The translations under genes and the position numbers were made by a program. The notes beneath the pieces were generated by a model. That model saw nothing but the letters and a program-made list of their open reading frames with translations, searched no databases and had not been told where the DNA came from. A stretch of DNA of 64,000 nt from Morinoia aosen (lineage: Eukaryota; Arthropoda; Malacostraca; Amphipoda; Talitridae): the NCBI GenBank assembly GCA_030386875.1, contig CM059563.1, forward strand, positions 45,228,102 through 45,292,101, written 5' to 3'. Shown here piece after piece: positions 431 to 50,379 of the stretch (the first letter of the stretch is position 1; each line of letters begins with the position of its first letter).

Positions 431-1706
431 TAGCGTTATTTGATACGACTCCGGCATCATTCGAAACGACTCCGGTATTATTCGATATGACCCCAGCATC
501 ATTCGATACGACTCAGATATTATTTGGTACGACTCCAGTATTATTTGATGCGACTCCGGTATTATTTGATACGATTCCAGTATTATTCGATACGACTCTG
601 GTATTATTTGATACGATTCCAGTAGTATTTGATACGATTCCAGTAGTATTTGATACGACTCCGGTATTATTTGATACGATTCCAGTATTATTCGATACGA
701 CTCCGGTATTATTTTATACGATTCTAATATTATTTGATACGACTCCGGTATTATTTAATATGATTCCAGTATTATTCGATACGACTCCGGTATTATTCGA
801 TACGACTTCGGTATTATTCGATACGACTCCGGTATTATTCGATACGACTCCGGTATTATTCGATACGACTCCGGTATTATTCGATGCGACTCCGGTATTA
901 TTCGATGCGACTCCGGTATTATTTGATACGACTCCGGTATTGTTTGATACGATTCCAGTATTATTTGATACGATTCCAGTATTATTTGATGCGACTCCGG
1001 TATTATTTGATACGATTCCAGTATTATTTGATACGATTCCAGTATTATTTGATACGATTCCAGTATTATTTGATACGATTCCAGTATTATTTGATGCGAC
1101 TCCGGTATTATTTGATACGATTCCAGTATTATTTGATTCGATTCCAGTATTATTTGATACGATTCCAGTATTATTTGATACGATTCCAGTATTATTTGAT
1201 GCGACTCTGGTATTATTTGATACGACTCTGGTATTATTTGATACGATTCCAGTATTATTTGATACGATTCCAGTATTATTTGATACGATTCCAGTATTAT
1301 TTGATACGATTCCAGTATTATTTGATGCGACTCCGGTATTATTTGATACGATTCCAGTATTATTTGATTCGATTCCAGTATTATTTGATACGATTCCAGT
1401 ATTATTTGATTCGATTCCAGTATTATCCGATACGACTCCGGTATTATTTGATACGATTCCAGTATTATCCGATACGACTCCGGTATTATTTGATACGGTT
1501 CCAGTATTATTTGATGCGACTCCGGTATTATTTGATACGATTCCAGTATTATTTGATTCGATTCCAGTATTATCCGATACGACTCCGGTATTATTTGATA
1601 CGATTCCAGTATTATCCGATACGACTCCGGTATTATTTGATACGATTCCAGTATTATCCGATACGACTCCGGTATTATTCGATACGACTGCGGTATTATT
1701 CGAGCA
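431..1706. repeat. 21-bp minisatellite array (about 60 copies)
   Basis: Tandem 21-bp unit with core GATACGA(C/T)TCC(A/G)GTATTATT. Because 21 is a multiple of three and the unit has no stop in one plus frame, the array reads as a 407-codon string of VLFDTTP/VLFDTIP heptads; two other frames are also open over most of the array. The heptad frame simply follows the array and has no unique domain, so I read it as non-coding. Two main monomer types (ACTCCGG and ATTCCAG) are scattered at first. From about 1400 to 1680 they alternate as 42-bp dimers, with TTATCC marking one member. The first copies (430-560) are the most diverged. Confidence 0.95.
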
Positions 1707-2318
1707 TTAAACATTGAGAGGCGTCTTGTAGAAGAAACAATAAAAGTAGACTGAAATAAACATATTCATTTTGATCTCCATTGGTGTTTAAGTAAAATTT
1801 AAAACTGAACAACGCAGTTCTCAATCGGTGACCAGGCCAGTCTGCGGCGACGGCAGCTGCTCCGAAGACACCTCGAGGCACAGGAGCAGACCGGAGGCAG
1901 ACCACGGTAGAGGAAACAAGGTAGGTTCAAACCAGTCTTTTTTTCGTTGACGGTGTGGTTATGCTGACGTCACGGCAACAAGCCAACAGCAGCGCTCATA
2001 TTGCATCTGGTAGCACTGCTGCCTCCAAGTCTGGCGCCACTACTGGCCTAACGACATGGCGTTTTGGTGACGCCATAAAGTTTGTCTGAAATAAAGCCTT
2101 TCTATTGGCTAGCCGTACAAGAGGAGGTGTAATTTCTCCTATAGAAATGACCCTACCTTGTTTCCTCTGCAGAGCCCTCGGCCGTGTGCCACAAAATGAG
2201 GCCTTGCTGTGAGGATTTGAAATTCAGGAGCAGACCGCCACGCAGCGACGAGGGGCGCTCTCAACTTTGCCTGCCAATCTGCATGCGAAACTGGTAAAGT
2301 GGCATGACACGCCACGGG
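1707..2318. other. Unique spacer between two arrays
   Basis: About 600 bp of mixed sequence, with a GC-richer part at 1830-2050, separating the 21-bp and 19-bp arrays. It holds a 17-bp inverted repeat (annotated separately) and a 13-bp direct repeat CAGGAGCAGACCG at 1881-1893 and 2225-2237. Short frames across it run into the arrays and show no domain. Confidence 0.6.
1909..2168. repeat. 17-bp perfect inverted repeat pair
   Basis: AGAGGAAACAAGGTAGG at 1909-1925 is matched by its exact reverse complement at 2152-2168, about 226 bp apart. The direct repeat CAGGAGCAGACCG lies just outside both arms. This could be the end structure of a small decayed mobile element or an inversion footprint. No target-site duplication was identified. 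Confidence 0.6.
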
Positions 2319-5300
2319 GGTGTGTGGCGTGTGGGAGGTGTTGTGGCGTGTGGGGGGTGTTGTGGCGTGTGGGAGGTGTTGGGGCGTGTGGCAGGTGTTG
2401 TGGCGTGTGGGGGGGTGTTGTGGCTTGTGGGAGGTGTTGTGGCGTGTGAGAGGTGTTGTGGCGTGTGAGAGGTGTTGTGGCGCGTGAAGTGTGGCAGGTG
2501 CTTTGACGTGTGGGAGGTGCTGTGGCATATGGCAGGTGCTGTGGCGTGTGGGAGGTGTTGTGGCGCGTGGAGTGTGGCAGGTGTTTTGACGTGTGGGAGG
2601 TATTGTGGAGTGTGGGAGGTGTTGTGGCGTGTGGCAGGTGTTGTGGCGTGTGGGAGGTGTTGTGGCGTGTGGCAGGTGTTGTGGCGTGTGGAGGGTGTTG
2701 TGCCGTGTGGGAGGTGTTGGGGCGTGGGGGGGGTGTTGTGGCGTGTGGGGGGGTGTTGTGGCGTGTGGGGGGGTGTTGTGGCGTGTGGGGGGTGTTGTGG
2801 TGTGTGGGAGGTGTTTTGGCGTGTGGAAGGTGTTGTGGCGTGTGGGAGGTGTTGTGGGGTGTGGGAGGTGTTGTGGAGTGTGGAAGGTGCTGTGGCGTGT
2901 GGGAGGTGCTGTGGCGTGTGGGAGGTGTTGTGGCGTGTGGGAGGTGTTGTGGCGTGTGAGAAGTGTTGAGGCGCGTGAAGTGTGGCAGGTGCTTTGACGT
3001 GTGGGAGGTGCTGTGGCGTGTGGCAGGTGCTGTGGCGTGTGGGAGGTGTTGTGGCGTGTGGGAGGTGTTGTGGCGTGTGGGAGGGGTTGTGGCGTGTGGG
3101 AGGGGTTGTGGCGTGTGGGAGGTGTTGTGGCATGTGAGAGGTGTTGTGGCGCGTGGAGTGTGGCAGGTTTTTTGACGTGTGGGAGGTGTTGTGGCGTGTG
3201 GGAGGTGTTGTGGTTTGTGGGAGGTGTTGTGGCGTGTGGCAGGTGTTGTGGCGTGTGGGAGGTGTTATGGCTTGTGGTTGGTGTTGTGGCGTGTGAGAGG
3301 TGTTGTGGCGTGTGGGAGGTGTTGTGGCGTGTGGGAGGTGTTGTGGCCTGTGGGAGGTGTTGTGGCGAGTGGGAGGTGTTGTGACGTGTGGGAGGTGTTG
3401 TGGCGTGTGAGAGGTGTTATGGCGCGTGGAGTGTGGCAGGTTTTTTGACGTGTGGGAGGTGTTGTGGCGTGTGGGAGGTGTTGTGGCGTGTGAGAGGTGT
3501 TGTGGCGTGTGAGAGGTGTTGTGGCGTGTGGGAGGTGTTGTGGCGTGTGGGAGGTGTTGTGGCGTGTGGGAGGTGTTGTGGCTTGTGGGAGGTGTTGAAG
3601 CGTGTGAGAGGTGTTGTAGCGTGTGAGAGTTGCTGTGGCGTGGGGGAGGTGTTGTGGCGTGGGGGAGGTGTTGTGGCGTGTGGGAGGTGTTGTGGCGTGT
3701 GGGAGGTGTTGTGGCGTGTGGGAGGGGTTGTAACGTGTGGGAGGTGTGGTGGCGTGTGGGAAGTGATGTGGCGTGTGGGTGGTGTTGTGGCGTGTGGGAG
3801 GTGTTGTGGCGTGTGGGAGGTGTTGTGGCGTGTGGGAGGTGTTGTGGCGTGTGGGAGGGGTTGTGGCGTGTGGGAAGGGTTGTGGCGTATGGGAGGTATT
3901 GTGGCGTGTAGGAGGTGTTGTGGCGTGTGGGAGGTGTTCTGGAGTGTGGGAGGTGTTGTGGCATGTGGGAGGTGTTGTGGCGTGTGGGAGGTGTTGTGGC
4001 GTGGGGAAGGTGTTGTGGCGTGTTGGAGGTGTTGCGGCTTGTGTGTTGTGGCGTGTGGGAGGTGTTGTGGCGTGTGGGAGGTGTTGTGGCGTGTGGAAGG
4101 GGTTTTAACGTGTGGGAGGTGTAGTGGCGTGTGGGAAGTGATGTGGCGTGTGGGAGGTGATGTGGCGTGTGGGTGGTGTTGTGGCTTGTGGGAGGTGTTA
4201 TGGCGTGTGGGAGGTGTTGTGGCGTATGGGAGGTGTTGTGGCGTGTGGGAGGGGTTGTAACGTGTGGGAGGTGTAGTGGCGTGTGGGAGGTGTAGTGGCG
4301 TGTGGGAAGTGAAGTGGCGTGTGGGAGGTGATGTGGCATGTGGGAGGTGTTGTGGCGTGTGGGAGGTGTTGTGGCGTGTGGGAGATGTTGTGGCGTGTGG
4401 GAGGGGTTGTAACGTGTGGGAGGTGTTGTGGCGTGTGGGAGGTGTTCTGGCGTGTGGGAGGTGTTGTGGCATGTGGGAGGTGTTGTGGCTTGTGGGAGTT
4501 GTTGAAGCGTGTGAGAGGTGTAGTAGCGTGTGAGAGTTGTTGTGGCGTGGGGGAGGTGTTGTGGCGTGTGGGAGGTGTTGTGGCGTGTGGGAGGTGTTGT
4601 GGCGTGTGGGAGGGGTTGTAACGTGTGGGAGGTGTGGTGGCGTGTGGGAAGTGATGTGGCGTGTGGGTGGTGTTGTGGCGTGTGGGAGGTGTTGTGGCGT
4701 GTGGGAGGTGTTGTTGCGTGTGGGAGGTGTTGTGGCGTGTGGGAGGGGTTGTGGCGTGTGGGAAGGGTTGTGGCGTATGGGAGGTGTTGTGGCGTGTAGG
4801 AGGTGTTGTGGCGTGTGGGAGGTGTTCTGGAGTGTGGGAGGTGTTGTGGCATGTGGGAGGTGTTGTGGCGTGTGGGAGGTGTTGTGGCGTGTGGGAGATG
4901 TTGTGGCGTGTGGGAGGGGTTGTAACGTGTGGGAGGTGTTGTGGCGTGTGGGAGGTGTTCTGGCGTGTGGGAGGTGTTTTGGCATGTGGGAGGTGTTGTG
5001 GCGTGTGGGAGGTGTTGTGGCGTGTGGGAGGTGTTGTGGCGTGTGGGATGTGTTGTGGCGTGTGGGATGTGTTGTGGCGTGTGGGAGGTGTCTGGGCGTG
5101 TGGGAGGTGTTGTGGCGTGTGGAAGGTGTCTTGCGTGTGGGAGGTGTTGTGGCGTGTGGGAGGTGTTGTGGCGTGTGGGATGTGTTGTGGCGTGTGGGAG
5201 GTGTCTTGCGTGTGGGAGGTGTTGTGGCGTGTGCGAGGTGTTGTAGCGTGTGCGAGGTGTTGTGGCGTGTGCGAGGTGTTGTGGCGTGTGCGAGGTGTTG

Positions 5301-6931
5301 TGGCGTGTGCGAGGTGTTGTGGCGTGTGCGAGGTGTTGTGGCGTGTGCGAGGTGTTTTGGCGTGTGCGAGGTGTTGTGGCGTGTGCGAGGTGTTGTGGCG
5401 TGTGGGAGGTGTTGTGGCGTGTGGGAGGTGTTGTGGCGTGTGGGAGGTGTTGTGGCGTGTGGGAGGTGTCTGGGCGTGTGGGAGGTGTTGTGGCGTGTGG
5501 AAGGTGTCTTGCGTGTGGGAGGTGTCTTGCGTGTGGGAGGTGTTGTGGCGTGTGGGAGGTGTTGTGGCGTGTGGGAGGTGTTGTGGCGTGTGGGAGGTGT
5601 TGTGGCGTGTGGGAGGTGTTCTGGCGTGTGGGAGGTGTTCTGGCGTGTGGGAGGTGTTGTGGCATGTGGGAGGTGTTGTGGCGTGTGGGAGGTGTTGTGG
5701 CGTGTGAGAGGTGTTGTGGCGTGGTGGAGGTGTTGTGGCGTGTGGGAGGTGTTGCGGCTTGTGGGAGGTGTTGTGGCGTGTGGGAGGTGTTGTGGCGTGT
5801 GGGAGGTGTTGTGGCGTGTGGGAGGGGTTGTAACGTGTGGTAGGTGTAGTGGCGTGTGGGTGGTGTTGTGGCGTGTGGGAGGTGTTGTGGCGTGTGGGAG
5901 GTGTTGTGGCGTGTGGGAGGTGTTGTGGCGTGTGGGAGGTGTTGTGGCGTGTGGGAGGTGTTGTGGCGTGTGGGAGGTGTTGTGGCGTGTGGGAGGTGTT
6001 CTGGCGTGTGGGAGGTGTTGTGGCATGTGGGAGGTGTTGTGGCGTGTGGGAGGTGTTATGGCGTGTGGGAGGTGTTGTGGCGTGTGGGAGGTGTTGTGGC
6101 GTGTGGGAGGTGTTGTGGCGTGTGGGAGGTGTTGTGGCGTGTGGGAGGTGTCTGGGCGTGTGGGAGGTGTTGTGGCGTGTGGAAGGTGTCTTGCGTGTGG
6201 GAGGTGTTGTGGCGTGTGTGAGGTGCTGTGGCGTGTGGGAGGTGTTGTGGCGTGTGGGAGGTGTTGTGGCGTATGGGAGGTGTTGTGGCTTGTGGGAGGT
6301 GTTGTAGCGTGTGGGAGGTGTTGGGGCGTGTGGGAGGTGTTGGGGCGTGTGGGAGATGTTGGGGCGTGTGGGAGGTGTTGTGGCGTGCGGGAGGTGTTGT
6401 GGCGAGTGGGAGGTGATGTGGCGTGCGGGAGGTGTTGTGGCGTGTGGGAGGTGTTGTGGCGTGTGGGAGGTGTTGTGGCGTGTGGGAGGTGTTGTGGCGT
6501 GTGCGAGGTGTTGTGGCGTGTGCGAGGTGTTGTGGCGTGTGGGAGGTGTTGTGGCGTGTGGGAGGTGTTGTGGCGTGTGGGAGGTGTTGTGGCGTGTGGG
6601 AGGTGTTGTGGCGTGTGGGAGGTGTTGTGGCGTGTGGGAGGTGTTGTGGCGTGTGGGAGGTGTTGTGGCGTGTGCGAGGTGTTGTGGCGTGTGGGAGGTG
6701 TTGTGGCGTGTGGAGGTGTTGTGGCGTGTGGGAGGTGTTGTGGCGTGTGGGAGGTGTTGTGGCGTGTGGGAGGTGTTGTGGCGTGTGGGAGGTGTTGTGG
6801 CGTGTGCGAGGTGTTGTGGCGTGTGGGAGGTGTTGTGGCGTGTGGAGGTGTTGTGGCGTGTGGGAGGTGTTGTGGCGTGTGGGAGGTGTTGTGGCGTGTG
6901 GGAGGTGTTGTGGCGTGTGGGAGGTGTTGTG
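2319..6931. repeat. 19-bp minisatellite array (about 240 copies)
   Basis: The largest array: unit GTGTTGTGGCGTGTGGGAG, G/T-rich on the plus strand, with point variants (GTGCGAG, TGTAACG, CTTG, GTGATG). The unit has no stop triplet on either strand, and 19 is not a multiple of three, so all six frames tend to stay open with a 19-residue period. Examples are VLWRVGGVVACGRCCGVWE on plus and HNTSHTPQHLPHATTPPTR on minus. Frames of up to about 1,175 codons arise this way and are not proteins. Larger duplicated blocks are visible: variants near 3620-3900 recur near 4520-4800 at an offset of about 888 bp, and an 18-bp unit recurs 132 bp apart at 6709 and 6841. The final kilobase is the most uniform. 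Confidence 0.97.
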
Positions 6932-7741: not shown

Positions 7742-8699
7742 GAGTGGGGGCAGGGTGAGGGGGCAGGGTGAGGGGGCAGGGTGAGGGGGCAGGGTGAGGG
7801 GGCAGGGTGAGGGGGCAGGGTGAGGGGGCAGGGTGAGGGGGCAGGGTGAGGGGCAGGGTGAGGGGCAGGGTGAGGGGCAGGATGAGGGGGCAGGGTGAGG
7901 GGGCAGGGTGAGGGGGCAGGGTGAGGGGCAGGGTGAGGGGGGCAGGATGAGGGGGCAGGGTGAGGGGGCAGGGTGAGGGGGCAGGGTGAGGGGGCAGGGT
8001 GAGGGGGCAGGGTGAGGGGGCAGGGTGAGGGGGCAGGGTGAGGGGGCAGGGTGAGGGGCAGGGTGAGGGGCAGGGTGAGGGGCAGGATGAGGGGGCAGGG
8101 TGAGGGGGCAGGGTGAGGGGGCAGGGTGAGGGGCAGGGTGAGGGGGCAGGGTGAGGGGGCAGGGTGAGGGGGCAGGGTGAGGGGGCAGGGTGAGGGGGCA
8201 GGGTGAGGGGGCAGGGTGAGGGGGCAGGGTGAGGGGCAGGGTGAGGGGCAGGGTGAGGGGCAGGATGAGGGGCAGGGTGAGGAGGAGGGTGAGGGGCAGG
8301 GTGAGGAGCAGGGTGAGGAGCAGGGTGAAGGGCAGGGTGAGGGGGCAGGGTGAGGGGCAGGGTGAGGGGGCAGGGTGAGGGGGCAGGGTGAGGGGGCAAG
8401 GTGAGGGGCAGGGTGAGGGGCAGGGTGAGGGGCAGGGTGAGGGGCAGGGTGAGGGGCAGGGTGAGGGGCAGGGTGAGGGGCAGGGTGAGGGGCAGGGTGA
8501 GGGGCAGGGTGAGGGGCAGGGTGAGGGGCAGGGTGAGGGGCAGGGTGAGGGGGCAGGGTGAGGGGCAGGGTGAGGGGGCAGGGTGAGGGGCAGGGTGAGG
8601 GGGCAGGGTGAGGAGGCAGGGTGAGGGGAAGGACAAAGGGCAGGATGAGAGTGCAGGATGAGGGGGCAAGACGAGGGGGCAAGACGAGGGGGCAAGATG
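7742..8699. repeat. G-rich 12/13-bp minisatellite
   Basis: Tandem AGGGGGCAGGGTG (13 bp) and AGGGGCAGGGTG (12 bp), about 75 copies. The two lengths occur in blocks; an uninterrupted run of 12-mers spans about 8400-8545. Each unit carries two G-runs of 3-5 bases, so every pair of units meets a simple G-quadruplex pattern on plus, with a matching C-rich strand on minus. Minus-strand frames reading as proline, leucine and histidine strings are products of the repeat. The ends (8270-8340, 8620-8699) are more diverged, with GGAGGAG, AAGACGAG and AAGATG variants. Confidence 0.95.
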
Positions 8700-8817
8700 G
8701 AGATGCACAGGCTGCCGCGGGTTGATTTTAAAAATATTGAGCCCGTGAGAAGGTGTAGATCTATGATGCTAAACAAAAACGGATTTCATTTAGATCCTTT
8801 TAGCATTCAAAATATAC

Positions 8818-9186: not shown

Positions 9187-11342
9187 AATGCGCTATATTT
9201 TAGTCTATCGCGTCATACAACACTCTATTTTAGTCTATCGTGTCATATAACTCTCTATTTTAGTCTATCGCGTCATACAACACTCTATTTTAGTCTATCG
9301 TGTCATATAACACTCTATTTTAGTCTATCGTGTCATATAACTCTCTATTTTAGTCTATCGCGTCATACAACACTCTATTTTAGTCTATCGTGTCATATAA
9401 CTCTCTATTTTAGTCTATCGTGTCATATAACTCTCTATTTTAGTCTATCGCGTCATACAACACTCTATTTTAGTCTATCGCGTCATACAACACTCCATTT
9501 TAGTCTATCGTGTCATATAACTCTCTACTTTAGTCTATCGTGTCATATAACTCTCTATTTTAGTCTATCGTGTCATATAACTCTCTATTTTAGTCTATCG
9601 TGTCACACTACTCTATTTTAGTATATCGTGTCACACAACTCTATTTTAGTCTATCGTGTCGCACAACTCTATTTTAGTCTATCGTGTCACACAACTCTAT
9701 TTTAGTCTATCGTGTCGCACAACTCTATTTTAGTATATCGTGTCACACAACTTTATTTTAGTCTATCGTGTCGCACAACTCTATTTTAGTCTATCGTGTC
9801 GCACAACTCTATTTTAGTATATCGTGTCACACAACTCTATTTTAGTCTATCGTGTCGCACAACTCTATTTTAGTCTATCGTGTCACACAACTCTATTTTA
9901 GTCTATCGTGTCGCACAACTCTATTTTAGTATATCGTGTCACACAACTTTATTTTAGTCTATCGTGTCGCACAACTCTATTTTAGTCTATCGTGTCGCAC
10001 AACTCTATTTTAGTCTATCGTGTCACACTACTCTATTTTAGTATATCGTGTCACACAACTCTATTTTAGTCTATCGTGTCGCACAACTCTATTTTAGTCT
10101 ATCGTGTCACACAACTCTATTTTAGTCTATCGTGTCGCACAACTCTATTTTAGTATATCGTGTCACACAACTTTATTTTAGTCTATCGTGTCACACTACT
10201 CTATTTTAGTATATCGTGTCACACAACTCTATTTTAGTCTATCGTGTCGCACAACTCTATTTTAGTCTATCGTGTCACACAACTCTATTTTAGTCTATCG
10301 TGTCACACAACTCTATTTTAGTCTATCGTGTCACACAACTCTATTTTAGTATATCGTGTCACACAACTTTATTTTAGTCTATCGTGTCGCACAACTCTAT
10401 TTTAGTCTATCGTGTCACACAACTCTATTTTAGTCTATCGTGTCACACAACTCTATTTTAGTCTATCGTGTCACACAACTCTATTTTAGTCTATCGTGTC
10501 ACACAACTCTATTTTAGTCTATCGTGTCACACAACTCTATTTTAGTCTATCGTGTCACACAACTCTATTTTAGTCTATCGTGTCACACAATTCTATTTTA
10601 GTCTATCGTGTCATACAACACTGTATTTTAGTCTGTCGTGTCACACAACTCTATTTTAGTCTATCGTGTCACACAACTCTATTTTAGTCTATCGTGTCAC
10701 ACAACTCTATTTTAGTCTATCGTGTCACACAACACTCTATTTTAGTCTATCGTGTCATACAACACTGTATTTTAGTCTGTCATGTCATTCAACACTGTAT
10801 TTTAGTCTATCGTGTCCTACAACACTGTATTTTAGACTATCGTGTCATGCAACACTGTATTTCAGTCTATCGTGTCATACAACACTGTATTTTAGTCTAT
10901 CGTGTCATACAACACTGTATTTTAGTCTGTCGTGTCATACAACACTGTATTTTAGTCTATCGTGTCATACAACACTGTATTTCAGTCTATCGTGTCATAC
11001 AACACTGTATTTTAGCCTATCGTGTCACACAACTCTATTTTAGTCTATCGTGTCACACAACTCTATTTTAGTCTATCGTGTCACACAACTCTATTTTAGT
11101 CTATCGTGTCACACAACTCTATTTTAGTCTGTCGTGTCACGCAACACTATTTTAGTCTGTCGTGTCTTACAACTCTCTATTTTAGTCTGTCGTGTCATAC
11201 AACTCTCTATTTTAGTCTGTCGTGTCCTACAACTCTCTATTTTAGTCTGTCGAGTCATACAACTCTCTTTTTTAGTCTGTCGTGTCATGCAACACAATTT
11301 TAGTCTGTCGTGTCTTACAACACTCTATTTTAGTCTGTCGTG
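9187..11342. repeat. 28/30-bp minisatellite with length switching
   Basis: Tandem unit with core TATTTTAGTCTATCGTGTCA followed by CACAACTC (28 bp) or by a TATAACTCTC or TACAACACTC/TACAACACTG tail (30 bp). Blocks run 30 bp (9187-about 9608), 28 bp (to about 10600), mixed, 30 bp (about 10725-11020), 28 bp (to about 11130), then 27/30 bp. The 30-bp parts keep one frame open and the 28-bp parts close it: the frame starting at 9142 stops at 9621, where the unit changes. A six-unit (168-bp) block marked by CACTACTC and GTATATCG recurs at 9601, 10021 and, in altered form, about 10189. Confidence 0.95.
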
Positions 11343-11640
11343 GAGGACGGTCTTACGCAGCTAATTTTAACCCCTCATATTAGTTTTAAATTAACAATTG
11401 TAATCTTACTGCTAATTATTTTTGTGTCGTGTGTTAGAGTTTTCACCGCATGACAAAGCTAGCGCTTGTAAAAGTATGAGAGCGTTAGAAAATATATTAA
11501 TATCTCTTATAATCTAAACTCAGGGTGTCTTTTGAAATGAACTCACTCTTCGACTGTCTAGTACTCATGTATTGTGTTTCAAGGTAGGTATTTAACGACA
11601 TAGATACCATACAGTGACTTGAATATAAAATCACATTCAA

Positions 11641-11879
11641 TTTAACATGTTTTCTGTGAAGGGACCCACCGATGGTCACTGACGGGATTTGCGAAATGAT
11701 GCTGACCAACCTGCAGTAAATTTTTCAATTAGTTTTAATACCTAATGAAAATTAATAGAAGGTAACATCTATTTAATATTCGTTATTGCAAAATTGACCT
11801 CTGAAATTAACTCTAATTTGAATTTGATGTAGAACTTTAGTTTAACCCGCCCTGTTTAAAACGCAGTTAACGTGTTTAA
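11641..11879 (+). mobile_element. MITE-like element, group B copy 1
   Basis: Begins TTTAACATGTTTTCTGTGAA and ends GCAGTTAACGTGTTTAAA, an imperfect terminal inverted repeat around TTTAACAYGTT. A subterminal GGGACCCACCGATGGTCACT matches the CCACCGGTG block of copies at 22556, 25598, 35188, 43287 and 56675. The interior shares AATTTGAATTTGA- and AACTTTAGTTT-like segments with them. There is no open frame, so it is non-autonomous. A TTAA-type (piggyBac-like) origin is inferred from the termini only. Confidence 0.7.
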
Positions 11880-16870: not shown

Positions 16871-17604
16871 CCCTGGTGCTGTGTTTCAGAACAGGAAGCT
16901 TGTGAGCAATGTTTGATTTGAAAATGACCGCCGTGTTGAGGGAAAAACTTGTGGCAGACAACCGGGCTCGAATTTCAGAGTTTCATTTCCACAGAACGAA
17001 GGAAAGAGGTTTGGGAGTGTAGAAATGTTTTAAAATGCAAAATAGGCCGAAAGATTTTGTTTTCTATTCAACACACAAGGAAATGGAATAAAGGTGGGAA
17101 TATCTTGCCTGGAAAATATGCCTTTAATTTTTAACTGGCCACCAATTTTGTTCGTGGACGGCATTTTTGAAAAAGAAACCATTTCCGTCTATTTAATGAT
17201 GTTTAAGTTGTTTAGTTGGGGAATGCTCTAATATGGAGGCCTTTAAGACAAAATGCCTTTAAAGTTGTCTGGTCTGAGTAAAAGAGGTCCATCTGAGGAA
17301 GCAATTCAAGCGGCCGTTGATTGCTTATTTATGGGTGAAGATCTGACCTTTATGGGGCCCTCATGGGAACGCAGGGATTGGAAATAAGGACAGGGTGCAG
17401 GATGGTCTGTTTTACGGAGCCATAAGGAGATGCAGAACTTGGATGCGAGAACTGCTCTTTTATGGAGCAATAGAAGCAAGCGCAGAAGTTGTGATGGAGA
17501 TCTATTATTTTAATGGGCAATCTGGAGCTCCATCTTGGTTTGATAAAAGTGCCACGCACATCTCAGGAACTGTATTAGGTTGCATAGTGTTTCAACGCCA
17601 AAAG
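16871..17604. other. Intergenic DNA with weak ~54-bp repeats
   Basis: Mostly unique. From about 17345 to 17550 a weak repeat is visible: TTTATGGGGCCCTCATGGGA, TTTACGGAGCCATAAGGAGA, TTTATGGAGCAATAGAAGCA and TTTAATGGGCAATCTGGAGC recur every 50-60 bp, each followed in part by a GCAGAAGTTG-like segment. No gene is supported. Confidence 0.45.
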
Positions 17605-17976
17605 ATTAGATTATAAGTTAGTTTCAGTCTCCCTAACTACAACAAAGGTGTTCCAAAGAGACGATGCTTGAAGGCACAATTTAGGATGGAGCTAGGGAAT
17701 GTGGAATCTACAGTATACTCAAGGTGTGTTCTCACACAAAATCCCCTGCGCTTAGAAACAACAGTTAGAGAAGGAGGGTTATGAAACAAGATAAATGTCG
17801 AAGAAGAAAGTAATAGGCGCTAAAAAACAGAACAAAAGTGAACCGAAAAATGGTTCGTTACAAAGAAACCTATTTATTTCCAAAAAAAGAAGACCAGACT
17901 AACTTTCAGTTTGGGATCACACATCTTCACCCTGAGAGCTTTAATTCCAACAGTTGCATCCCCCGAGGAAGGAAGA
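17605..17976 (-). mobile_element. SINE-like element copy 1
   Basis: Diverged member of the window's SINE-like family, read on minus. The plus-strand left side (GATTAGATTATAAGTTAGTT) is the 3' tail and the right side near 17976 (CCCCCGAGG) is the 5' head. Shared internal blocks include CTCCCTAAC near the tail, GAAGAAGAAAGTA, GTGAACCGAAAAA and AACTTTCAGTTTGGG. No clear target-site duplication is seen, consistent with age. Confidence 0.8.
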
Positions 17977-18895
17977 TCACAAGGAACAGATTCCCATAAA
18001 AGCTTGAACCGAACTTCAACACCGGTTTAAAAGCTCCGTATTTTTATGCCACACCTCAAATTCTGCCGCAATGAAAGGAGCGCTCTGGTCACTGCTTGAG
18101 AACAAAACAGGCGGCAACAACAGCGCAAATCATCGGCTGGGCAATGCAGAAAAAGTGAGCTAAGTTAGTGGAGACGAAGAGATTAGGAGATCAGTAATTA
18201 CCTTTGAAGTGGCCCTTCACTAAAAAATACAAAATGGAAGCTGCCCATATGTTCCTCCACAAACAGCAACTTTTTTCCAAGTCTACCTTACGAAACGCCG
18301 ACTGAATCGTGTCTGAAATATGCGGTTTTTGAAGAGCTGTGATGCAGCCTTGCATTTTCCCTCTAGATCTGCTGTAGATCGTTTCGAAATGTTTTCAAGT
18401 GAATCATTTCGAAAACCTTTTCGGCTGTTGAAGACTTATTGTATGGTCCATAATTTTCCCTTCATACATCACTTGAACTTTTTACCTACCCTTTCGGGGA
18501 AGATGTGAGGTCCCGAACTGGAAGTCAAGTAGACCATCCCTCTGTTGTGATGCAATAGGTGTGTTGCTTCGTCTCTGACCCCTTTTTTAAGTTCACTGCA
18601 GTCCTTTTTCAGTACTTATTACTTTCTTCTTCAACTTTTTTCTTACTTTATAAATTTATTCCAACCTCTGGCGAGTCGCGCTGGCGAGTCGCGCTGACTC
18701 AATTCACGGCTCTTGAAAAATATATGAAATAATCAATATATAATTTATATAATATACGTTAACTTGAAGTAGCTGCGGCTCTCTCAATTAAAGCATTAAC
18801 CGAAGTGGTTCGCTTGCGAAAATTAGTGATTGACACTATTTTCGATGATGCTTCTTCCTTCCTCTTTTGGGAACACTAATGTTGCTGCTCAAGAG
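17977..18895. other. Unique intergenic DNA
   Basis: Short frames only (at most 62 codons). A small local direct repeat of TGGCGAGTCGCGCTG lies near 18668-18700. No gene seen. Confidence 0.5.
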
Positions 18896-19815: not shown

Positions 19816-20275
19816 TCTTCGTGAGGTCCTCGTGAGGTCCTCTTGAGGTCCTCTTGAGGTCCTCTTGAGGTCCTCTTGAGGTCCTCTTGAGGTCCTCTTG
19901 AGGTCCTCTTGAGGTCCTCTTGAGGTCCTCGTGAGGTCCTCGTGAGGTCCTCGTGAAGTCCTCGTGAGGTCCTCGTGAGGTCCTCGTGAGGTCCTCGTGA
20001 GGTCCTCGTGAGGTCCTCGTGAGGTCCTCGTGAGGTCCTCGTGAGGTCCTCGTGAGGCCCTCGAGAGGCCCTCGTGAGGCCCTCGTGAGGCCCTCGTGAG
20101 GCCCTCGTGAGGCCTTCGTGAGGCCCTCGTGAGGTCCCCGTGAGGTCCTCGTGAGGTCCATGTGAGGTCCTCGTGAGGTCCTCGTGAGGTCCTCTTGAGG
20201 TCCTCGTGAGGCCCTCGTGAGGCCCTCTTAAAGGTCCTCGTGAGACCTTCGTGAGGCCCTCGTGAGCTTCGGTGA
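19816..20275. repeat. 11-bp minisatellite, near-palindromic unit
   Basis: About 42 copies of GAGGTCCTCGT with variants GAGGTCCTCTT (a run at about 19840-19925) and GAGGCCCTCGT (20055-20130 and 20205-20225). GAGGTCCTC is self-complementary except at its central base, so either strand can pair with itself along the whole array. Because 11 is not a multiple of three and the minus unit lacks stops, three minus frames read as the 11-residue period GPHEDLTRTSR. These are not genes. Confidence 0.95.
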
Positions 20276-22784: not shown

Positions 22785-23672
22785 GTAGCATGTGAGTACG
22801 AGCTCTGGCATGCGCAGTGCGGGTATTGCGTCGGTGGCTGTGTCGGACGCTACATTTCAGAGCAGAGCATCCTGACAGTTTTTTAATAAATAAGCTCTTT
22901 GGCGTAAATAACATTGCGGATAAATTTTTCGATTTTAAATACAGTAGTTGATATTATTATTCGTTGTAATTTTATTCTTCAAAATTTAACATAATTATTT
23001 TATTCCAGATTACTCATCTTCTGTGATGTGAAATATAATTATATACTATCCGAAAACTTCAAAATTTGGAAAGTGTTACGATATAATTATGTCCTAACAT
23101 TAGAACTTAAATGGAATCAAACATTTTAATAACAGTTTTAGTTTAGGGTTATAGGTATTGCCGTATTGATGTAGTTTTAGGGCACAACAACACTTTTGCT
23201 CATAGTTAAAATCAAAATCTAAGTCTCAGCATTTGACACAAAAACTGTAGCTTCACCAGAAACATTCAAAATATTCTCCCTATAATTTTTACTCTGAATG
23301 AACAAAAGTAACTATAAGCGATTCAAGAATTTGAAGAATGTACTTTCAATCACAGCGAAGACTCGATACTCTAACCACTCGGAAGTAATTAACAGCGATT
23401 CTTCAGTTTGCACTTCCATCATTTTGAGCGAAGGCACCAGACTCTGAAAAATTGGAAGCAGTAATGAGAAGTTCATAAATCTGCAACACCCGCGTTTGCG
23501 TGCCTCACGAGGCGGTGTTATCAAGGACCACTAATTCCAGCAGGCAAATGACCGTCTTGTTCACAGCGGCCTAGCGACCGTTTTTTCCTGATAATTTACT
23601 GCGCCATCCTTCATCCGCCGAGCGTCGTGGCAACCGCAGTAAATCTGGCCTTCATATTTGGTGCTGTGCGCT
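22785..23672. other. Unique spacer
   Basis: AT-rich except for a short CpG-richer piece at about 22795-22860. No gene supported; a 70-codon minus frame at 23312-23524 has no domain. Confidence 0.5.
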
Positions 23673-24796
23673 GGTGCGGTGGTGTGTGAGGTGGTGCGGT
23701 GGTGTGTGAGGTGGTGCGGTGGTGTGTGAGGTGGTGCGGTGGTGTGTGAGGTGGTGCGGTGGTGTGTGAGGTGGTGCGGTGGTGTGTGAGGTGGTGCGGT
23801 GGTGTGTGAGGTGGTGCGGTGGTGTGTGAGGTGGTGCGGTGGTGTGTGAGGTGGTGCGGTGGTGTGTGAGGTGGTGCGGTGGTGTGTGATTTGGTGCGGT
23901 GGTGTGTGAGGTGGTGCGGTGGTGTGTGAGGTGGTGCGGTGGTGTGTGAGGTGGTGCGGTGGTGTGTGAGGTGGTGCGGTGGTGTGTGAGGTGGTGCGGT
24001 GGTGTGTGAGGTGGTGCGGTGGTGTGTGAGGTGGTGCGGTGGTGTGTGAGGTGGTGCGGTGGTGTGTGAGGTGGTGCGGTGGTGTGTGAGGTGGTGCGGT
24101 GGCGTGTGAGGTGGTGCGGTGGCGTGTGAGGTGGTGCGGTGGCGTGTGAGGTGGTGCGGTGGCGTGTGAGGTGGTGCGGTTATGTGTGAGGTGGTGCGGT
24201 GGTGTGTGAGGTGGTGCGGTGGTGTGTGAGGTGGTGCGGTGGTGTGTGAGGTGGTGCGGTGGCGTGTGAGGTGGTGCGGTGGCGTGTGAGGTGGTGCGGT
24301 GGTGTGTGAGGTGGTGCGGTGGTGTGTGAGGTGGTGCTGTGGTGTGTGAGGTGGTGCGGTGGCGTGTGAGGTGGTGCGGTGGTGTGTGAGGTGGTGCGGT
24401 GGCGTGTGAGGTGGTGCGGTGGCGTGTGAGGTGGTGCGGTTATGTGTGAGGTGGTGCTGTGGTGTGTGAGGTGGTGCGGTGGCGTGTGAGGTGGTGCGGT
24501 GGTGTGTGAGGTGGTGCGGTGGCGTGTGAGGTGGTGCGGTGGTGTGTGAGGTGGTGCTGTGGTGTGTGAGGTGGTGCGGTGGCGTGTGAGGTGGTGCGGT
24601 GGTGTGTGAGGTGGTGCGGTGGCGTGTGAGGTGGTGCGGTGGTGTGTGAGGTGGTGCGGTGGCGTGTGAGTTGGTGCGGTGGTGTGTGAGGTGGTGCTGT
24701 GGTGTGTGAGGGGGTGCGGTGGCGTGTGAGGTGGTGCGGTGGTGTGTGAGGTGGTGCGGTGGCGTGTGAGGTGGTGCGGTGGTGTGTGAGGTGGTG
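23673..24796. repeat. 20-bp minisatellite (about 56 copies)
   Basis: Unit GTGGTGCGGTGGTGTGTGAG, very regular. The first half is almost invariant (about 23673-24100); the second half mixes GGCGTGTGAG, TATGTGTGAG and GGTGCTGTGG variants in recurring order, for example TATGTGTGAG at 24181 and 24441, 260 bp or 13 units apart. The minus strand lacks stops, giving a 433-codon frame of 20-residue TTSHTTAPPHTPPHHLTHHR repeats whose short unique ends resemble no protein. I treat it as non-coding. Confidence 0.96.
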
Positions 24797-32170: not shown

Positions 32171-32599
32171 CGCAATTCCGGAGCCGATATATCAGCTGTC
32201 CGGTAGGGGTTAAAGTTGTTCGGGGTTATTTCATGTCCTTATAGGCTCAAGTCCTTTGTTTTTTCCTACAGGCCGTTGTGTCTAGGTCTTTCGAGTCAAG
32301 CGGTGGGCGCTGGCGTGCGGCAAGAGCTGCGTGATGTGCACTCGGGCCCGAGCAGTGCTACTCCTCGCCTATTGATTCGTTTGACTGTTGTTTACTGTTG
32401 TTACTAATCTTTCGTTGAGTTCAATTAAAAACTCTCAATCCGGACTTTCTTTAACTCCACCATCAGTCTTTTTGTATACGGAGAAGAAAACTCCGCATTA
32501 CATGCTAGCATTGAACTTTTATTTATTGAAATGTCTCACTCCCACCGTTGCTGTGATAGTAGCTTATAAATCGAGGGAGATTTTGTACACTAAACTCAA
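32171..32599. other. Unique spacer
   Basis: No gene or repeat identified. A 127-codon plus frame at 32388-32771 runs through unique DNA and the SINE-like fragment and is not supported as a gene. Confidence 0.45.
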
Positions 32600-32693
32600 T
32601 GTTGGTTTAAGTCTCCCCTACCCAGACAAAGGCGTTCCCAAGAGAGGAAAGAGGAAGGTACCATTTAGTATGGGACAGACACTAAAAAACAGC
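32600..32693 (-). mobile_element. SINE-like element copy 4, fragment
   Basis: Only the tail-proximal part of the family is present: TTTAAGTCTCCCCTACCC, GAGAGGAAAGAGGAAGG and ACCATTTAGTATGG, then a jump to ACTAAAAAACAG. The head is missing, as expected for a truncated insertion or internal deletion. Same orientation as the other copies. Confidence 0.75.
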
Positions 32694-32811
32694 TTTTCAA
32701 CTGCACCACAGGACTCAAAGGTTCCTGAGAACTTCTTCGTAGGCTCTCCAGAAGGCCATGGATCAGGCTAGGGGAACTGCAGTGCATCTCAGGCGCTCCA
32801 GAAAACAACTT

Positions 32812-33045
32812 CTAATCCCGAGGACTACTTTTCATCCCGAGGGCTGCTTCTCATCCCGTGGGCTACTTCTCATCCCGAGGGCTGCTTCTCATCCCGAGGG
32901 CTGCTTGTCATCCCGAGGGCTGCTTCTCATCCCGAGGGCTGCTTCTCATCCCGAGGGCTGCTTCTCATCCCGAGGGCTGCTTCTCATCCCGAGAGCTGCT
33001 TCTCATCCCGAGGGCTGCTTCTCATCCCGAGGGCTGCTTATTAGG
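32812..33045. repeat. 19-bp minisatellite (about 12 copies)
   Basis: Unit CATCCCGAGGGCTGCTTCT, highly uniform, with first-copy variants (GGACTACTTTT, GTGGGCTACTT). It gives overlapping plus frames with a 19-residue period that are not genes. It starts about 120 bp after the SINE-like fragment. Unrelated in sequence to the other 19-bp array at 2319-6931. Confidence 0.95.
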
Positions 33046-34290: not shown

Positions 34291-35187
34291 TGCAAATAAG
34301 GAGGTAACAGGAAAAATTAGAGGTAGAAAGTTCTACTGCTTCCTTTGCTTCACTTGACAATTCTACCAAAATGGAAAAATCTGAAGCAAGCGACTCAAAA
34401 GCGCGTCTCTCGAAACATCGAGATCACACTCGTCATGACCAGTACTGGATATCATCAACTGCTATTTCAATGTTTCATTTTAACTTCAATGAAATAGAAA
34501 ACTGGTAAATTTACATTCGGAGCAAATTACTCTACTCACCAAACCTTCTTTGTCTTTAAAATAACTTGATTCTAGTCCGCGCCTGAATGAAAGCAGAGGC
34601 GAAATTATAAGCAGTAAAAGATTAATGACGGTTCCGATATCCTGTAAAAAACTAAAAACACCTCGAGAATATGTAATTAAGTGTGAGTTCCGCTGCTAGG
34701 TTGAGGGGTACCCAGCTTAGTCGTCGTAGAATTAGAAACGAGGAATAATGATGAGTTAATTGACAATTTAGTCCATTTTCATAATTTACCCACGTTCACA
34801 TGTGACAATTCTTAGATTACTGACACGGGAATACGTGTGGGCCACGTCTCTTTCCATTAAATGTTGAGAAAAGACTCGTAATATCCTCCCACCGAAGAAA
34901 TCAAATCCTCTGAACGATTTGTTTTAGCATCTCAAAAACTTGACACGACTGAATTTGCCGCACAAACTCACCAGGACTGAATGTTATAGTACGCAAAGCA
35001 AAAAATTCAAATCTTCACGTATTTGATGGAGTTGAATTGAGGCACTTGGGGTGAGCCAGTTCTATAGAATCAGAAGTGAGATCACACGACCCGGTCACGA
35101 GGTTTAATGATAGTGTAGTGTTGTATCATACAGCCGAGCTTCCCTTGCTGACCGAGCTACAAGTTGAGGAGGAAGTCGCACGCTTGA
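34291..35187. other. Unique AT-rich spacer
   Basis: Nothing recognised apart from AT-rich unique DNA. Confidence 0.5.
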
Positions 35188-35423
35188 ATTTTAACATTTT
35201 GGCTGCGGGGGTGAGCCACCGGTGATCACCGAGGGAGTGTTCATTATGCTGCTGACTGACATGTAGAGTCAAAAACTCAGTTTTGATAAGAACTTCATCA
35301 AAACTAAATGGAATAACGATCCAGTTAATGTTTGCTATTTTCAACATCGCCAAATCCAACTAACTTAAAACGTGAATTAAATATTAAACTTTAGTTTGAC
35401 TTGCCGCAGTCAAAGTGTTAAAG
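35188..35423 (+). mobile_element. MITE-like element, group B copy 4
   Basis: Terminal inverted repeats TTTTAACATTTTGGCTGCGG (left) and CTTTAACACTTTGACTGCGG (right, reverse complement). Subterminal GAGCCACCGGTGATCACCGA, interior GATCCAGTTAATGTTTGCT and ATTAAACTTTAGTTTGAC match copies at 11641 and 43287. About 236 bp, non-autonomous. Confidence 0.85.
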
Positions 35424-36432
35424 CCCCATGATTCGAAAAGATGAACATCCACACAAGTTTTTGAGGGTTTAGTCCTACAGCCTTAAATAAATATTTCAGT
35501 TTGCATGACGTTTCGGAATAACGTTCCTTTAAACAACGAAAAAGATTGAGATTTATAACAATGTTTTTTTACTTGGTGTTACCATTGCGGAACTTCAACG
35601 ATGCTTTCATAAGCTGGGGATGGACAATTGGACATTAAAAGTTCATAGAACATTTCAAATGATAAAACAGTTTATTAATTTTTTTTGTGTCGTGAACTGT
35701 TGTGATTGAACTCTATTTATAATATGTTTAAAAATTTTTGGATGATCTGTTTGGTCGCATAAGCTTCTAAATATCTTTGTGTAAAATTTACAGAGTGTGA
35801 TTGGCAGTTAACACCTATTAGGACAATATTATCGTCTGATTACATGAGACTAGCAGCTTGTAGACGAACTAAAAGCAAAGTAATTAAATGAAATAAAAGT
35901 TAGGAGCAAATAGGTGGAGTAAATATTTGTACCTTATTGGTCAAGTGACACCTTGCACATGAAGTCAGTAATACTATCCTGTAGATGAAGTAATTGCTGG
36001 CACCCTCTGCGTAGAAATACAAGTTTCTTGAGTGTGAAAAATATACTATTACTGCTAAAAAATTATTGCCAAATGTAAGTTCGACACAAATAGAGTAATA
36101 AACGAATATTTTACATTGTTTTTCCCATTTTAAACTACTTCCTTAATATAGAGTATTTATTTACAGCTCTACCAACAAAACGGAGCATCAGCGAAGTCAA
36201 GCACGCGTCTTCGAGGGATTCTCAACTTCAGCGTTTTCCCGATGGAAGGATTTTAGAACGAGATTCTGCTCGTGAAAATTTGGAGAGAAATATGTTCTCA
36301 TATTGCTAAGTTTTAGACATTTGTTTCGGCAGATAGCACAACTAAGCAAATCTTCCGCATCGCACCGCGCTGCAGCTGTTGCCGTCATAAGGCGACTCAT
36401 GGTGTAAGTTAGCAAGTAAATCTTGTGAAGAG
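35424..36432. other. Unique AT-rich spacer
   Basis: No gene supported. Short minus frames near 36197-36415 overlap the edge of the 16-bp array. Confidence 0.5.
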
Positions 36433-37123
36433 TCTTTGTAATGTTGCTCTTTGTAAATGTTGCTCTTTGTAAATGTTGCTCTTTGTAAATGTTGCTCTTT
36501 GTAAATGTTGCTCTTTGTAAATGTTGCTCTTTGTAAATGTTGCTCTTTGTAAATGTTGCTCTTTGTAAATGTTGCTCTTTGTAAATGTTGCTCTTTGTAA
36601 ATGTTGCTCTTTGTAAATGTTGCTCTTTGTAAATGTTGCTCTTTGTAAATGTTGCTCTTTGTAAATGTTGCTCTTTGTAAATGTTGCTTTTTGTAAATGT
36701 TGCTCGTTGTAAATGTTGCTCTTTGTAAATGTTGCTCTTTGTAAATGTTGCTCTTTGTAAATGTTGCTCTTTGTAAATGTTGCTCTTTGTAAATGTCGCT
36801 CTTTGTAAATGTTGCTCTTTGTAAATGTTGCTCTATGTAAATGTTGCTCTTTGTAAATGTTGCTCTTTGTAAATGTTGCTCTTTGTAAATGTTGCTCTTT
36901 GTAAATGTTGCTCTTTGTAAATGTTGCTCTTTGTAAATGTTGCTCTTTGTAAATGTTGCTCTTTGTAAATGTTGCTCTTTGTAAATGTTGCTCTTTGTAA
37001 ATGTTGCTCTTTGTAAATGTTGCTCTTTGTAAATGTTGCTTTTTGTAAATGTTGCTCTTTGTAAATGTTGCTCTTTGTAAATGTTGCTCTTTGTAAATGT
37101 TGCTCTTTGTAAATGTTGCTCTC
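36433..37123. repeat. 16-bp minisatellite (about 43 copies)
   Basis: Unit TGTTGCTCTTTGTAAA, among the most uniform arrays here: only scattered substitutions (TTTTTG, TCGTTG, GTCGCTC, TCTATG). The minus strand lacks stops, so a 279-codon frame reads as KSNIYKEQHLQRATFT repeats. It is a product of the array. High uniformity suggests recent expansion or ongoing homogenisation. Confidence 0.96.

Positions 37124-40449: not shown

Positions 40450-40512
<63 letters not shown>
40450..40512. repeat. (CA)n microsatellite
   Basis: Uninterrupted dinucleotide repeat of about 31 units. Two short histidine/threonine frames across it are spurious. Confidence 0.98.
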
Positions 40513-40514
<2 letters not shown>

Positions 40515-43286: not shown

Positions 43287-43520
43287 CTTTACACGTTGGT
43301 TGCGATTTAAGCCACCGGTGTATATACATGGAGGGAATTTTCATACTGCTAATGACCGACCAGTAGTCACAAACTAAATTTTCATAATTGCTTTATCAAA
43401 GCTAAATGGAAGTACGATCTAGTTAATGTTTGCTATTTTCAAAATTTGTCACTACAATTGGCTTTAAATTTGAGTTCAATATTAAATTTCTGTTTAATTA
43501 ACCCATTACGGTCGAACTTT
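43287..43520 (+). mobile_element. MITE-like element, group B copy 5
   Basis: Left end CTTTACACGTTGGTTGCGAT followed by AAGCCACCGGTGTATATACA; interior AGCTAAATGGAAGTACGATC and GTTAATGTTTGCTATTTTC match the copy at 35188. The right terminus is weakly preserved. Non-coding. Confidence 0.75.
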
Positions 43521-46329: not shown

Positions 46330-46451
46330 GTTTCAAAAGATTTGCCATGACATTACACTTATCGTTCATGCTTCATGACGTGGCGCTGACGAACTTCAGA
46401 ATTTTGTTAACAAATATTTACACCAGGGCTGCTCTAGGAAAGGTTGATCAC

Positions 46452-47591: not shown

Positions 47592-48736
47592 TAGTTTACG
47601 TCGTTACGGCAGCTGGTTTACATCGTTACGGCAGCTGGTTTACGTCGTTACGGCAGCTGGTTTACATCGTTACGGCAGCTGGTTTACGTCGTTACGGCAG
47701 CTGGTTTACGTCGTTTCGGCAGCTGGTTTACGTCGTTACGGCAGCTGGTTTACATCGTTACGGCAGCTGGTTTACATCGTTACGGCAGCTGGTTTACGTC
47801 GTTACGGCAGCTGGTTTACATCGTTACGGCAGCTGGTTTACGTCGTTACGGCAGCTGGTTTACGTCGCTACGGCAGCTTGTTACATCGTTACAGCAGCTG
47901 GTTTACATCGTTACGGCAGCTGGTTTACGTCGTTACGGCAGCTGGTTTACGTCGTTACGGCAGCTGGTTTACATCGTTACGGCAGCTGGTTTACGTCGTT
48001 ACGGCAGCTGGTTTACATCGTAACGGCAGCTGGTTTACGTTGTTACGGCAGCTGGTTTACATCGTTACGGCAGCTGGTTTACGTCGTTACGGCAGCTGGT
48101 TTACATCGTTACGGCAGCTGGTTTACGTCGTTACGGCAGCTGGTTTACATCGTTACGGCAGCTGGTTTACGTCGTTACGGCAGCTGGTTTACGTCGCTAC
48201 GGCAGCTTGTTTACATCGTTACAGCAGCTGGTTTACATCGTTACAGCAGCTGGTTTACGTCGTTACGGCAGCTGGTTTACGTCGTTACGGCAGCTGGTTT
48301 ACGTCGTACCGGCAGCTGGTTTACGTCGTACCGGCAGCTGGTTTACGTCGTTACGGCAGCTGGTTTACGTCGTTACGGCAGCTGGTTTACGTTGTTACGG
48401 CAGCTGGTGTACGTCGTTACGGCAGCTGGTTTACGTTGCTACGGCAGCTTGTTTACATCGTCACAGCAGCTGGTTTACATCGTTACAGCAGCTGGTTTAC
48501 GTCGTTACGGCAGCTGGTTTACGTCGTTACGGCAGCTGGTTTACGTCGTTACGGCAGCTGGTTTACGTCGTTACGGCAGCTGGTTTACGTCGTTACGGCA
48601 GCTGGTTTACGTCGTTACGGCAGCTGGTTTACGTCGTTACGGCAGCTGGTTTACGTCGTTACGGCAGCTGGTTTACGTCGTTACGGCAGCTGGTGTACGT
48701 CGTTACGGCAGTTGGTTTACATCGTGACGGAAGCTG
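47592..48736. repeat. 22-bp minisatellite with E-box core (about 52 copies)
   Basis: Unit built of GTTTAC(A/G)TCGTTACGG followed by CAGCTG, with A/G alternation at one position and occasional TACC, GCTACGG and ACAGCAG variants. The motif combination GCTACGGCAGCTTGTT(T)AC plus ACAGCAG recurs near 47865, 48190 and 48435, showing block duplication. Plus frames are open (up to 646 codons, continuing into the next array) because the unit has no plus-strand stop; minus is closed by TAA. Each unit carries the palindromic hexamer CAGCTG. Confidence 0.96.
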
Positions 48737-49418
48737 GTGCTTGGTGGCGGCAGCTGGTGCTTGGTGGCGGCAGCTGGTGCTTGGTGGCGGCAGCTGGTGC
48801 TTGGTGGCGGCAGCTGGTGCTTGGTGGCGGCAGCTGGTGCTTGGTGGCGGCAGCTGTTGCTTGGTGGCGGCAGCTGTTGCTTGGTGGCGGCAGCTGGTGC
48901 TTGGTGGCGGCAGCTGGTGTTTGGTGGCGGCAGCAGTTGATGTTGGTGGCGGCAGCTGGTGCTTGGTGGCGGCAGCTGGTGCTGGGTGGCGGCAGCTGGT
49001 GTTTGGTGGCGGCAGCTGGTGCTTGGTGGCGGCAGCTGGTGTTTGGTGGCGGCAGCTGGTGTTTGGTGGCGGCAGCAGTTGATTTTGGTGGCGGCAGCTG
49101 GTGCTTGGTGGCGGCAGCTGGTGCTGGGTGGCGGCAGCTGGTGTTTGGTGGCGGCAGCTGGTGCTTGGTGGCGGCAGCTGGTGTTTGGTGGCGGCAGCAG
49201 TTGATGTTGGTGGCGGCAGCTGGTGCTGGGTGGCGGCAGCTGGTGTTTGGTGGCGGCAGCTGGTGTTTGGTGGCGGCAGCAGTTGATGTTGGTGGCGGCA
49301 GCTGGTGCTGGGTGGCGGCAGCTGGTGTTTGGTGGCGGCAGCTGGTGTTTGGTGGCGGCAGCTGGTGTTTGGTGGCGGCAGCTGGTGTTTGGTGGCGGCA
49401 GCTGGTGTTTGGGGGCGG
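48737..49418. repeat. 20-bp minisatellite fused to the 22-bp array (about 34 copies)
   Basis: Unit GTGCTTGGTGGCGGCAGCTG begins exactly where the 22-bp array ends, and the two share CGGCAGCTGGT. Variants TTTGG, CTGGG and a CAGCAGTTGATGTTGG-type unit recur in a fixed order near 48929, 49070, 49196 and 49278, indicating a multi-unit higher-order block. Open frames on both strands are products of the array. Confidence 0.96.
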
Positions 49419-49760
49419 CAGGAGGCAATCCTGAAGCACTGCCACCATCCGAGGGCGCGGCCACGCTCTCGACAGAGGGCGTTGATCGCTTAGGGACTCG
49501 ATTACTTTGTACCTTATAATTATTCTTGATGTTTAAACAATTTATTTTCTACAAGCAATTCAGCAGTAGATGGTTTCCTAAGTCTAGTAAAATGTACACA
49601 TTTGAGTATTTGTTCTCACTAGATGACATCTAAGTGGAAAAAAACAATATTGGTTTTCGAAGACAAAGGGTCGGTATGAAGAAAGAACAGCTTCTTTTAC
49701 GAGGGAGGAAAAGGCCTTGAATAGTTAAAAAAATTAAATGAAAAAGTAACTGTGGCTTAT
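49419..49760. other. Unique spacer between arrays
   Basis: Short CpG-rich start (49430-49490), then AT-rich DNA. No gene. Confidence 0.5.
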
Positions 49761-50379
49761 GTTAAGTTACGGGGTAATGTTATGTGATAAAGTTACGCGG
49801 TGAAGTTATGTGGTAAAGTTACGGGGTAAAGTTGCGGGGTAAAGTTGCGGGGTGAAGTTACGGGGTAAAGTTGCGGAGTAAAGTTGCGGAGTAAAGTTAC
49901 GGGGTAAAGTTATGTGGTAAAGTTACGGGGTAAAGTTACGGGGTGAAGTTATGTGGTAAAGTTACGGGGTAAAGTTGCGGGGTAAAGTTGCTGCGTAAAG
50001 TTACGGGGTAAAGTTATGTGGTAAAGTTACGGGGTAAAGTTATGTGGTAAAGTTACGGGGTAAAGTTACGGGGTGAAGTTATGTGGTAAAGTTACGGGAT
50101 AAAGTTGCAGGGTAAAGTTGCAGGGTAAAGTTGCAGGGTAAAGTTGCGAGGTAAAGTTACGGGGTAAAGTTATGTGGTAAAGTTACGAGGTAAAGTTACA
50201 GGGTAAAGTTATGTGGTAAAGTTGCGGTGTAAAGTTGCGGGGTAAAGTTACCGAGTAAAGTTACGGGGTAAAGTTACGGGGTAAAGTTACGTGGTAAAGT
50301 TACGGGGTAAAGTTACGGGGTAAATTTCCAAGGTAAAGTTACGGGGTAAAGTTGCGGGGTAAAGTTACGCGGTGAAATT
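49761..50379. repeat. 13-bp minisatellite (about 47 copies)
   Basis: Unit AAAGTTACGGGGT with two common variants, AAAGTTATGTGGT and AAAGTTGCGGGGT. The TATGTGGT variant recurs at irregular multiples of 13. The plus strand contains TAA and TGA words, so no long frame arises. Confidence 0.95.

Follow-up and report, generated by a model that had tools for sequence, protein, structure and literature searches.

The classical hypervariable minisatellite has a GC-rich, strand-asymmetric unit. Published precedents for an abundance of short tandem units are the minisatellite-rich genomes of freshwater crayfish (PMC13130569) and the GC-rich minisatellites near human chromosome ends (PMC3486850), in the portions of those reports drawn on here. 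The stretch of DNA analysed, 64,000 bp long and referred to below as the window, resembles the human subtelomeric arrays HRAS1, CEB1 and CEB25 in its short tandem units, mostly GC-rich, and in the G-quadruplex (G4) potential of at least one array; it differs from what that account describes in that four of its eleven families lie below 50% GC, and it is known from one haplotype (PMC3486850). With the minisatellite-dominated crayfish satellitome, as far as the cited portion describes it, the window shares its many short-unit families and their wide range of GC content, although the crayfish satellite DNA (satDNA) families are those of whole genomes, whereas here each unit occupies one place in 64 kb (PMC13130569). 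The mo-2 regions of the mouse pseudoautosomal region likewise form minisatellite-dense segments, but in the part of that work cited here a single family is named, for which a seeding of meiotic break factors is proposed, in contrast to the eleven unit types of the window (PMC10997794). We propose, with a probability of about 0.78, that the arrays described below are independent minisatellites, each of them going back to a chance seed and enlarged where it lies, and that the DNA around them is gene-poor and holds repeat remnants.

Tandem Repeats Finder (TRF; settings 2 5 7 80 10 50 500), run on the 64-kb window, returned ten arrays of at least 400 bp, with units of 21, 19, 13, 28, 11, 20, 16, 22, 20 and 13 bp and a total of 13,688 bp, or 21.4% of the 64,000 (Table 1). 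Adding the shorter G19 array, whose unit is a second 19-mer, brings the total to eleven unit types, in ten physical blocks that cover 13,919 bp (21.7%), in agreement with a preliminary description of the sequence, which had given the same counts, units and coordinates and had put the array content at 22%. All eleven families have the unit length of minisatellites, with consensus units of 11–28 bp arranged head to tail in arrays of 12–241 units. The mixtures of 12 with 13 bp and of 28 with 30 bp that the same description had read from two of the arrays are borne out by the unit counts, C13 containing 40 units of 13 bp and 34 of 12 bp, and D28 48 units of 28 bp and 23 of 30 bp. In J20, TRF also called a period of 142. 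When arrays of any length are included, 25.4% of the window falls under TRF rows with units of at least 7 bp. Thirteen further short or decayed arrays, where about ten had been estimated, were counted across the window in the TRF table, two-copy scraps and simple repeats being left out; the final 13.6 kb contains no long array by TRF. Thirty first-order Markov shuffles of the window gave 0–2 TRF rows each, and since their longest array measured 48 bp, a chance origin of the arrays is excluded.

Table 1. Tandem arrays and other repeat features, with their positions in the window
Feature	Position	Strand	Description
A21 array	436..1700		60 units of 21 bp (TRF)
B19 array	2319..6931	+	241 units, mostly 19 bp; G-rich on +, GC skew 0.79
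C13 array	7746..8694	+	75 units of 12/13 bp (GGGGGCAGGGTGA); G-quadruplex prone
D28 array	9196..11342		74 units of 28/30/32 bp
E11 array	19819..20266		40 units of ~11 bp (TCGTGAGGTCC)
F20 array	23659..24796	+	56 units of 20 bp; G-rich on +, skew 0.80
G19 array	32809..33039		12 units of second 19-mer; 231 bp
H16 array	36433..37122		43 units of 16 bp; most homogeneous
I22 array	47594..48738		52 units of 22 bp
J20 array	48724..49421	+	34 units of 20/22 bp; related to and continuous with I22
K13 array	49764..50373	+	46 units of 13 bp (AAGTTACGGGGTA); G-rich on +, skew 0.68
~360-bp dispersed repeat	17603-17958, 20582-20942, 26274-26630, 51794-52146, 58058-58428, 61707-62058		Six copies
~360-bp repeat, fragments	32599-32673, 18496-18660 (reverse)		Two fragments
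Second dispersed family	11636-11846, 22552-22783, 25591-25836, 35181-35429, 43291-43497		~200-250 bp; both orientations
Long inverted repeats	46454-46716/47001-47254		80% identical
Inverted repeats, MITE-like	53840-53936/54298-54394		97 bp each; 84% complementary; 361 bp apart
Open frame	59430-59828	-	133 aa, across a 69-bp (23-residue) repeat
Microsatellite	40450-40512		Perfect (CA)31

Do these arrays descend from one another? Local alignment of the 55 unit pairs, in all rotations and on both strands, with 300 shuffles for the seven pairs scoring at least 14, singled out the 22-mer of I22 and the 20-mer of J20 as the only pair that stands out (p = 0.003, the floor of 300 shuffles). The pairs E11/F20 (p = 0.010) and I22/K13 (p = 0.013) were not significant after correction for the number of pairs. 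The GT-rich 19-mer and 20-mer of the arrays that begin at 2319 and 23659 are alike by eye, a resemblance no stronger than composition gives (p = 0.14), and on the alignment of unit pairs against shuffles a single ancestral unit for all arrays was rejected. The earlier claim that the units are unrelated apart from the 22/20 pair stands in this shuffle-controlled comparison, with one of 55 pairs clearly related. At the junction of I22 and J20, exact 22-mers give way to two diverged 22-mers and then to the 20-mer; it is therefore probable that the edge of one array supplied the seed of the other. Outside its own array, none of the 11 units found an ungapped match within the window that beat the best of 20 shuffled versions, and dispersed seeds of the array units there were rejected on this ground.

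The array edges were examined in 20 flanks of up to 600 bp, with neighbouring arrays masked, by wraparound alignment against 60 shuffles at a p of 0.05. In 19 of these flanks no decayed units above the level of the shuffles lie beyond the array edge; the right flank of E11 holds a possible decayed extension at 20362-20401 (p = 0.016, uncorrected). Direct or inverted repeats that might mark transposon boundaries were sought by comparing the two 150-bp flanks of each of the 10 blocks with one another; no consistent signal emerged, the smallest p values among the 20 tests being 0.030 and 0.050. Since nearly all flanks are free of decayed units and no consistent repeats bound the blocks, the arrays look grown in place rather than inserted. 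Together, the unit comparison, the lack of outside copies and the 19 clean flanks of 20 uphold the preliminary reading of unrelated segments amplified separately, with no dominant satellite spreading.

Within the arrays, similarity between neighbouring units and the course of divergence were assessed with 2000 permutations (floor p 0.0005), with the commonest unit as the reference for divergence. Adjacent units resemble each other more than randomly paired ones do in B19, C13, D28 and E11 (p = 0.0005 each), and the permutation test was not significant in the other seven of the eleven arrays. Divergence rises towards the left in B19 (slope r = -0.32) and towards the right in C13 (slope r = 0.50), and both edges of D28 are more diverged than its centre (r = 0.64; p = 0.0005 in each case). 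Weaker signals came from A21, whose edge units are more diverged (p = 0.007), from E11 (slope p = 0.016, edges p = 0.03) and from the slope of G19 (p = 0.02), and distance to the commonest unit revealed no gradient in F20 (p = 0.06), H16, I22, J20 or K13. The gradients depend on the reference, because J20 has one when compared with the TRF consensus but none when compared with its commonest unit.

Multi-unit blocks with at least three variants are repeated in eight of the eleven arrays, and in five of the eleven none of 200 shuffles of unit order reached the observed block length: an 8-unit block recurs at lag 11 in A21, an 11-unit block at lag 7 in B19, a 15-unit block at lag 16 in C13, a 7-unit block at lag 7 in D28 and a 5-unit block at lag 10 in K13. 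Of the 17 units in one stretch of B19, 15 recur unchanged at lag 47, whereas 2 to 5 do so at the adjacent lags that were tried. The block repeats are weaker in J20, I22 and F20, where 7, 8 and 18 of the 200 shuffles, respectively, matched the observed length, and E11, G19 and H16 contain no repeated variant block. Ordered variants, as looked for in minisatellites, are therefore a feature of part of the arrays, and H16 shows no such sign. The arrays seem to differ in age, H16 being homogeneous (37 of its 43 units are identical) and A21 and K13 diverged, with about a tenth of their positions off consensus.

In composition, the DNA outside the eleven arrays has a GC content of 38.6% and a CpG observed/expected ratio of 0.95, and seven of the eleven families exceed 50% GC. 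GC skew is at least 0.49 in five of the eleven (B19, C13, F20, J20 and K13), all of them G-rich on the + strand, and amounts to -0.32 in D28. The common strand of these five strongly skewed arrays, at a two-sided sign probability of 0.06, is only suggestive. G4Hunter scores are 2.03 for C13 and 1.00 for B19. The blocks are bunched at 0.4-11.3 kb and at 47.6-50.4 kb, and four of the nine gaps between blocks measure 814 bp or less, for which P is 0.024 under uniform placement with a threshold chosen after the gaps had been seen.

What surrounds the arrays looks like gene-poor, repeat-rich eukaryotic DNA, as judged from the following searches. Neither a tRNA nor, at gathering score, an Rfam family turned up in the window. 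Across six frames spanning 43.6 of the 64 kb, Pfam at E 0.05 returned nothing besides a Mucin-like match inside E11; the remaining ~20.4 kb comprise ~13.2 kb of arrays and ~7 kb outside them. The Mucin-like match, twice above the cut-off, lies on the minus strand, and its presence in all three minus frames of E11 marks it as false and compositional. Among 179 open frames of at least 60 aa, ten were chosen for comparison with Pfam and gave two matches, both below the cut-off; the long open frames were rejected as genes, as they fall mostly in arrays, whose units are without stops.

Dispersed repeats were found by a masked self-BLAST of the window. Copies of the ~360-bp repeat are 66-88% identical, lie in one orientation in seven of eight places and are SINE-like in size and in a putative tRNA-like motif. 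The MITE-like element comes from an inverted-repeat search, among 25 of its 44 pairs, and the second dispersed family from those pairs and the self-BLAST. The 133-aa frame matched nothing in Pfam, and its 23-residue repeat presumably resembles the 23-residue repeats of Helitron-linked proteins. With its CpG ratio and the likeness of one repeat peptide, the window gives a tentative impression of being arthropod-like.

Whether the density of arrays is a property of the genome or of the region bears on how the window is to be read. One explanation, which we entertain tentatively, at somewhat short of even odds, is that the genome is large, rich in repeats and home to a great number of minisatellite families, the window being a typical or mildly rich sample. 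This explanation draws support from the crayfish species, for which the cited portion of the report gives 54-622 satDNA families, mostly minisatellites and especially of units below 50 bp (PMC13130569), and from the spread of the shorter arrays over the window; against it speak the empty end of the window and far lower published densities elsewhere. For units of 11-50 bp, genome-wide values obtained by subtraction from Table 4 of PMC3152781 are ~3,930 bp/Mb (~0.39%) in Daphnia, ~10,135 bp/Mb (~1.0%) in Drosophila and ~5,100 bp/Mb (~0.5%) in the honeybee, and the figures taken from PMC5940134 for a stick insect are 44.4 Mb for minisatellites with units of 7-1000 bp and 2.6% of the assembly for tandem repeats as a whole. 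Setting against such values the ~214,000 bp/Mb that the window holds in arrays of at least 400 bp alone is an unfair comparison, between a chosen window scanned by TRF and genome means that come, for Daphnia, Drosophila and the honeybee, from Phobos. A regional origin, with the window lying in a zone of subtelomeric or pseudoautosomal-like character whose frequent breaks give rise to minisatellites and enlarge them, strikes us as possible but rather unlikely. Human chromosome ends gather GC-rich, G4-forming minisatellites, according to the part of PMC3486850 used here, and the GC-rich majority of families, the G4-prone C13 and the bunching of the blocks would fit such a zone; the families of low GC content would not, and of eight telomere-like motifs sought in the window none occurs in tandem copies except one CCCAACCCAA. 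It is improbable, in our estimation, that the window belongs to a sex chromosome without recombination, or to a heterochromatic block, in which tandem repeats of many kinds accumulate. The neo-Y of the cricket Eneoptera, which bears 39 of 45 satDNA families (PMC5527012), offers a parallel, and no gene was recognised in the Pfam-scanned frames of the window; yet many of the Eneoptera families, in the portion of that study cited, lie at multiple loci or give scattered signals, whereas each unit here has one place in the window (PMC5527012).

Two further explanations concern the nature of the arrays themselves. That they are internal tandem repeats of inserted transposons, Helitron- or MITE-like, is disfavoured and in our view very unlikely, even though transposon-like repeats are abundant between the arrays and some lie close to them: the long inverted-repeat element stops ~340 bp short of the 22-mer array, the 360-bp repeat has copies that start 316 bp beyond E11 and end 136 bp ahead of G19, and another repeat lies 294 bp after D28. 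The array units nevertheless differ from one another, the block edges are without consistent terminal repeats or target duplications, and the masked self-comparison revealed no repeat touching the edges of two blocks. Arrays inflated or wrongly joined in the assembly would account for the density in another way, and tandem arrays are prone to misassembly; nothing direct points to it here. Block duplications and gradients are what slippage or unequal exchange would be expected to leave behind, so a simple artefact of assembly is unlikely, and we give it hardly any weight: neither collapse nor inflation in its simple form predicts ordered variants, block duplications beyond those of shuffles or gradients.

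Each array instead looks like an ordinary minisatellite grown in place, and the density in the window is real and high. In our model of independent minisatellites, every array would have started when a short piece of local sequence happened to be duplicated in tandem, and would then have grown where it lay through slippage during replication, unequal exchange between sisters or the repair of breaks inside the array, processes that one haplotype does not separate. J20 may have arisen from the diverged 22-mer units at the edge of I22, which would have given rise to a 20-mer array that went on to its own expansion, or the reverse may have taken place. Those G-rich units that are difficult to replicate may be especially prone to expansion, and where genes are few, weak selection could allow arrays to persist. 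The setting is most likely poor in genes and may lie close to the end of a chromosome, within a large eukaryote genome, perhaps that of an animal, that is rich in repeats and may hold many such arrays. We consider it doubtful that some process, acting in the region or throughout the genome, multiplies arbitrary short segments in tandem at much more than the usual rate, favouring G-rich ones on one strand and producing a continuum from 2-copy to 241-copy arrays.

What the window mainly shows, for now, is that arrays can be this dense without the involvement of a dominant satellite or of a transposon. If the density is genome-wide, this would be one more genome dominated by minisatellites. If it is regional, the window would offer a natural series for studies of minisatellite birth and growth, because arrays of different apparent age share one background side by side.
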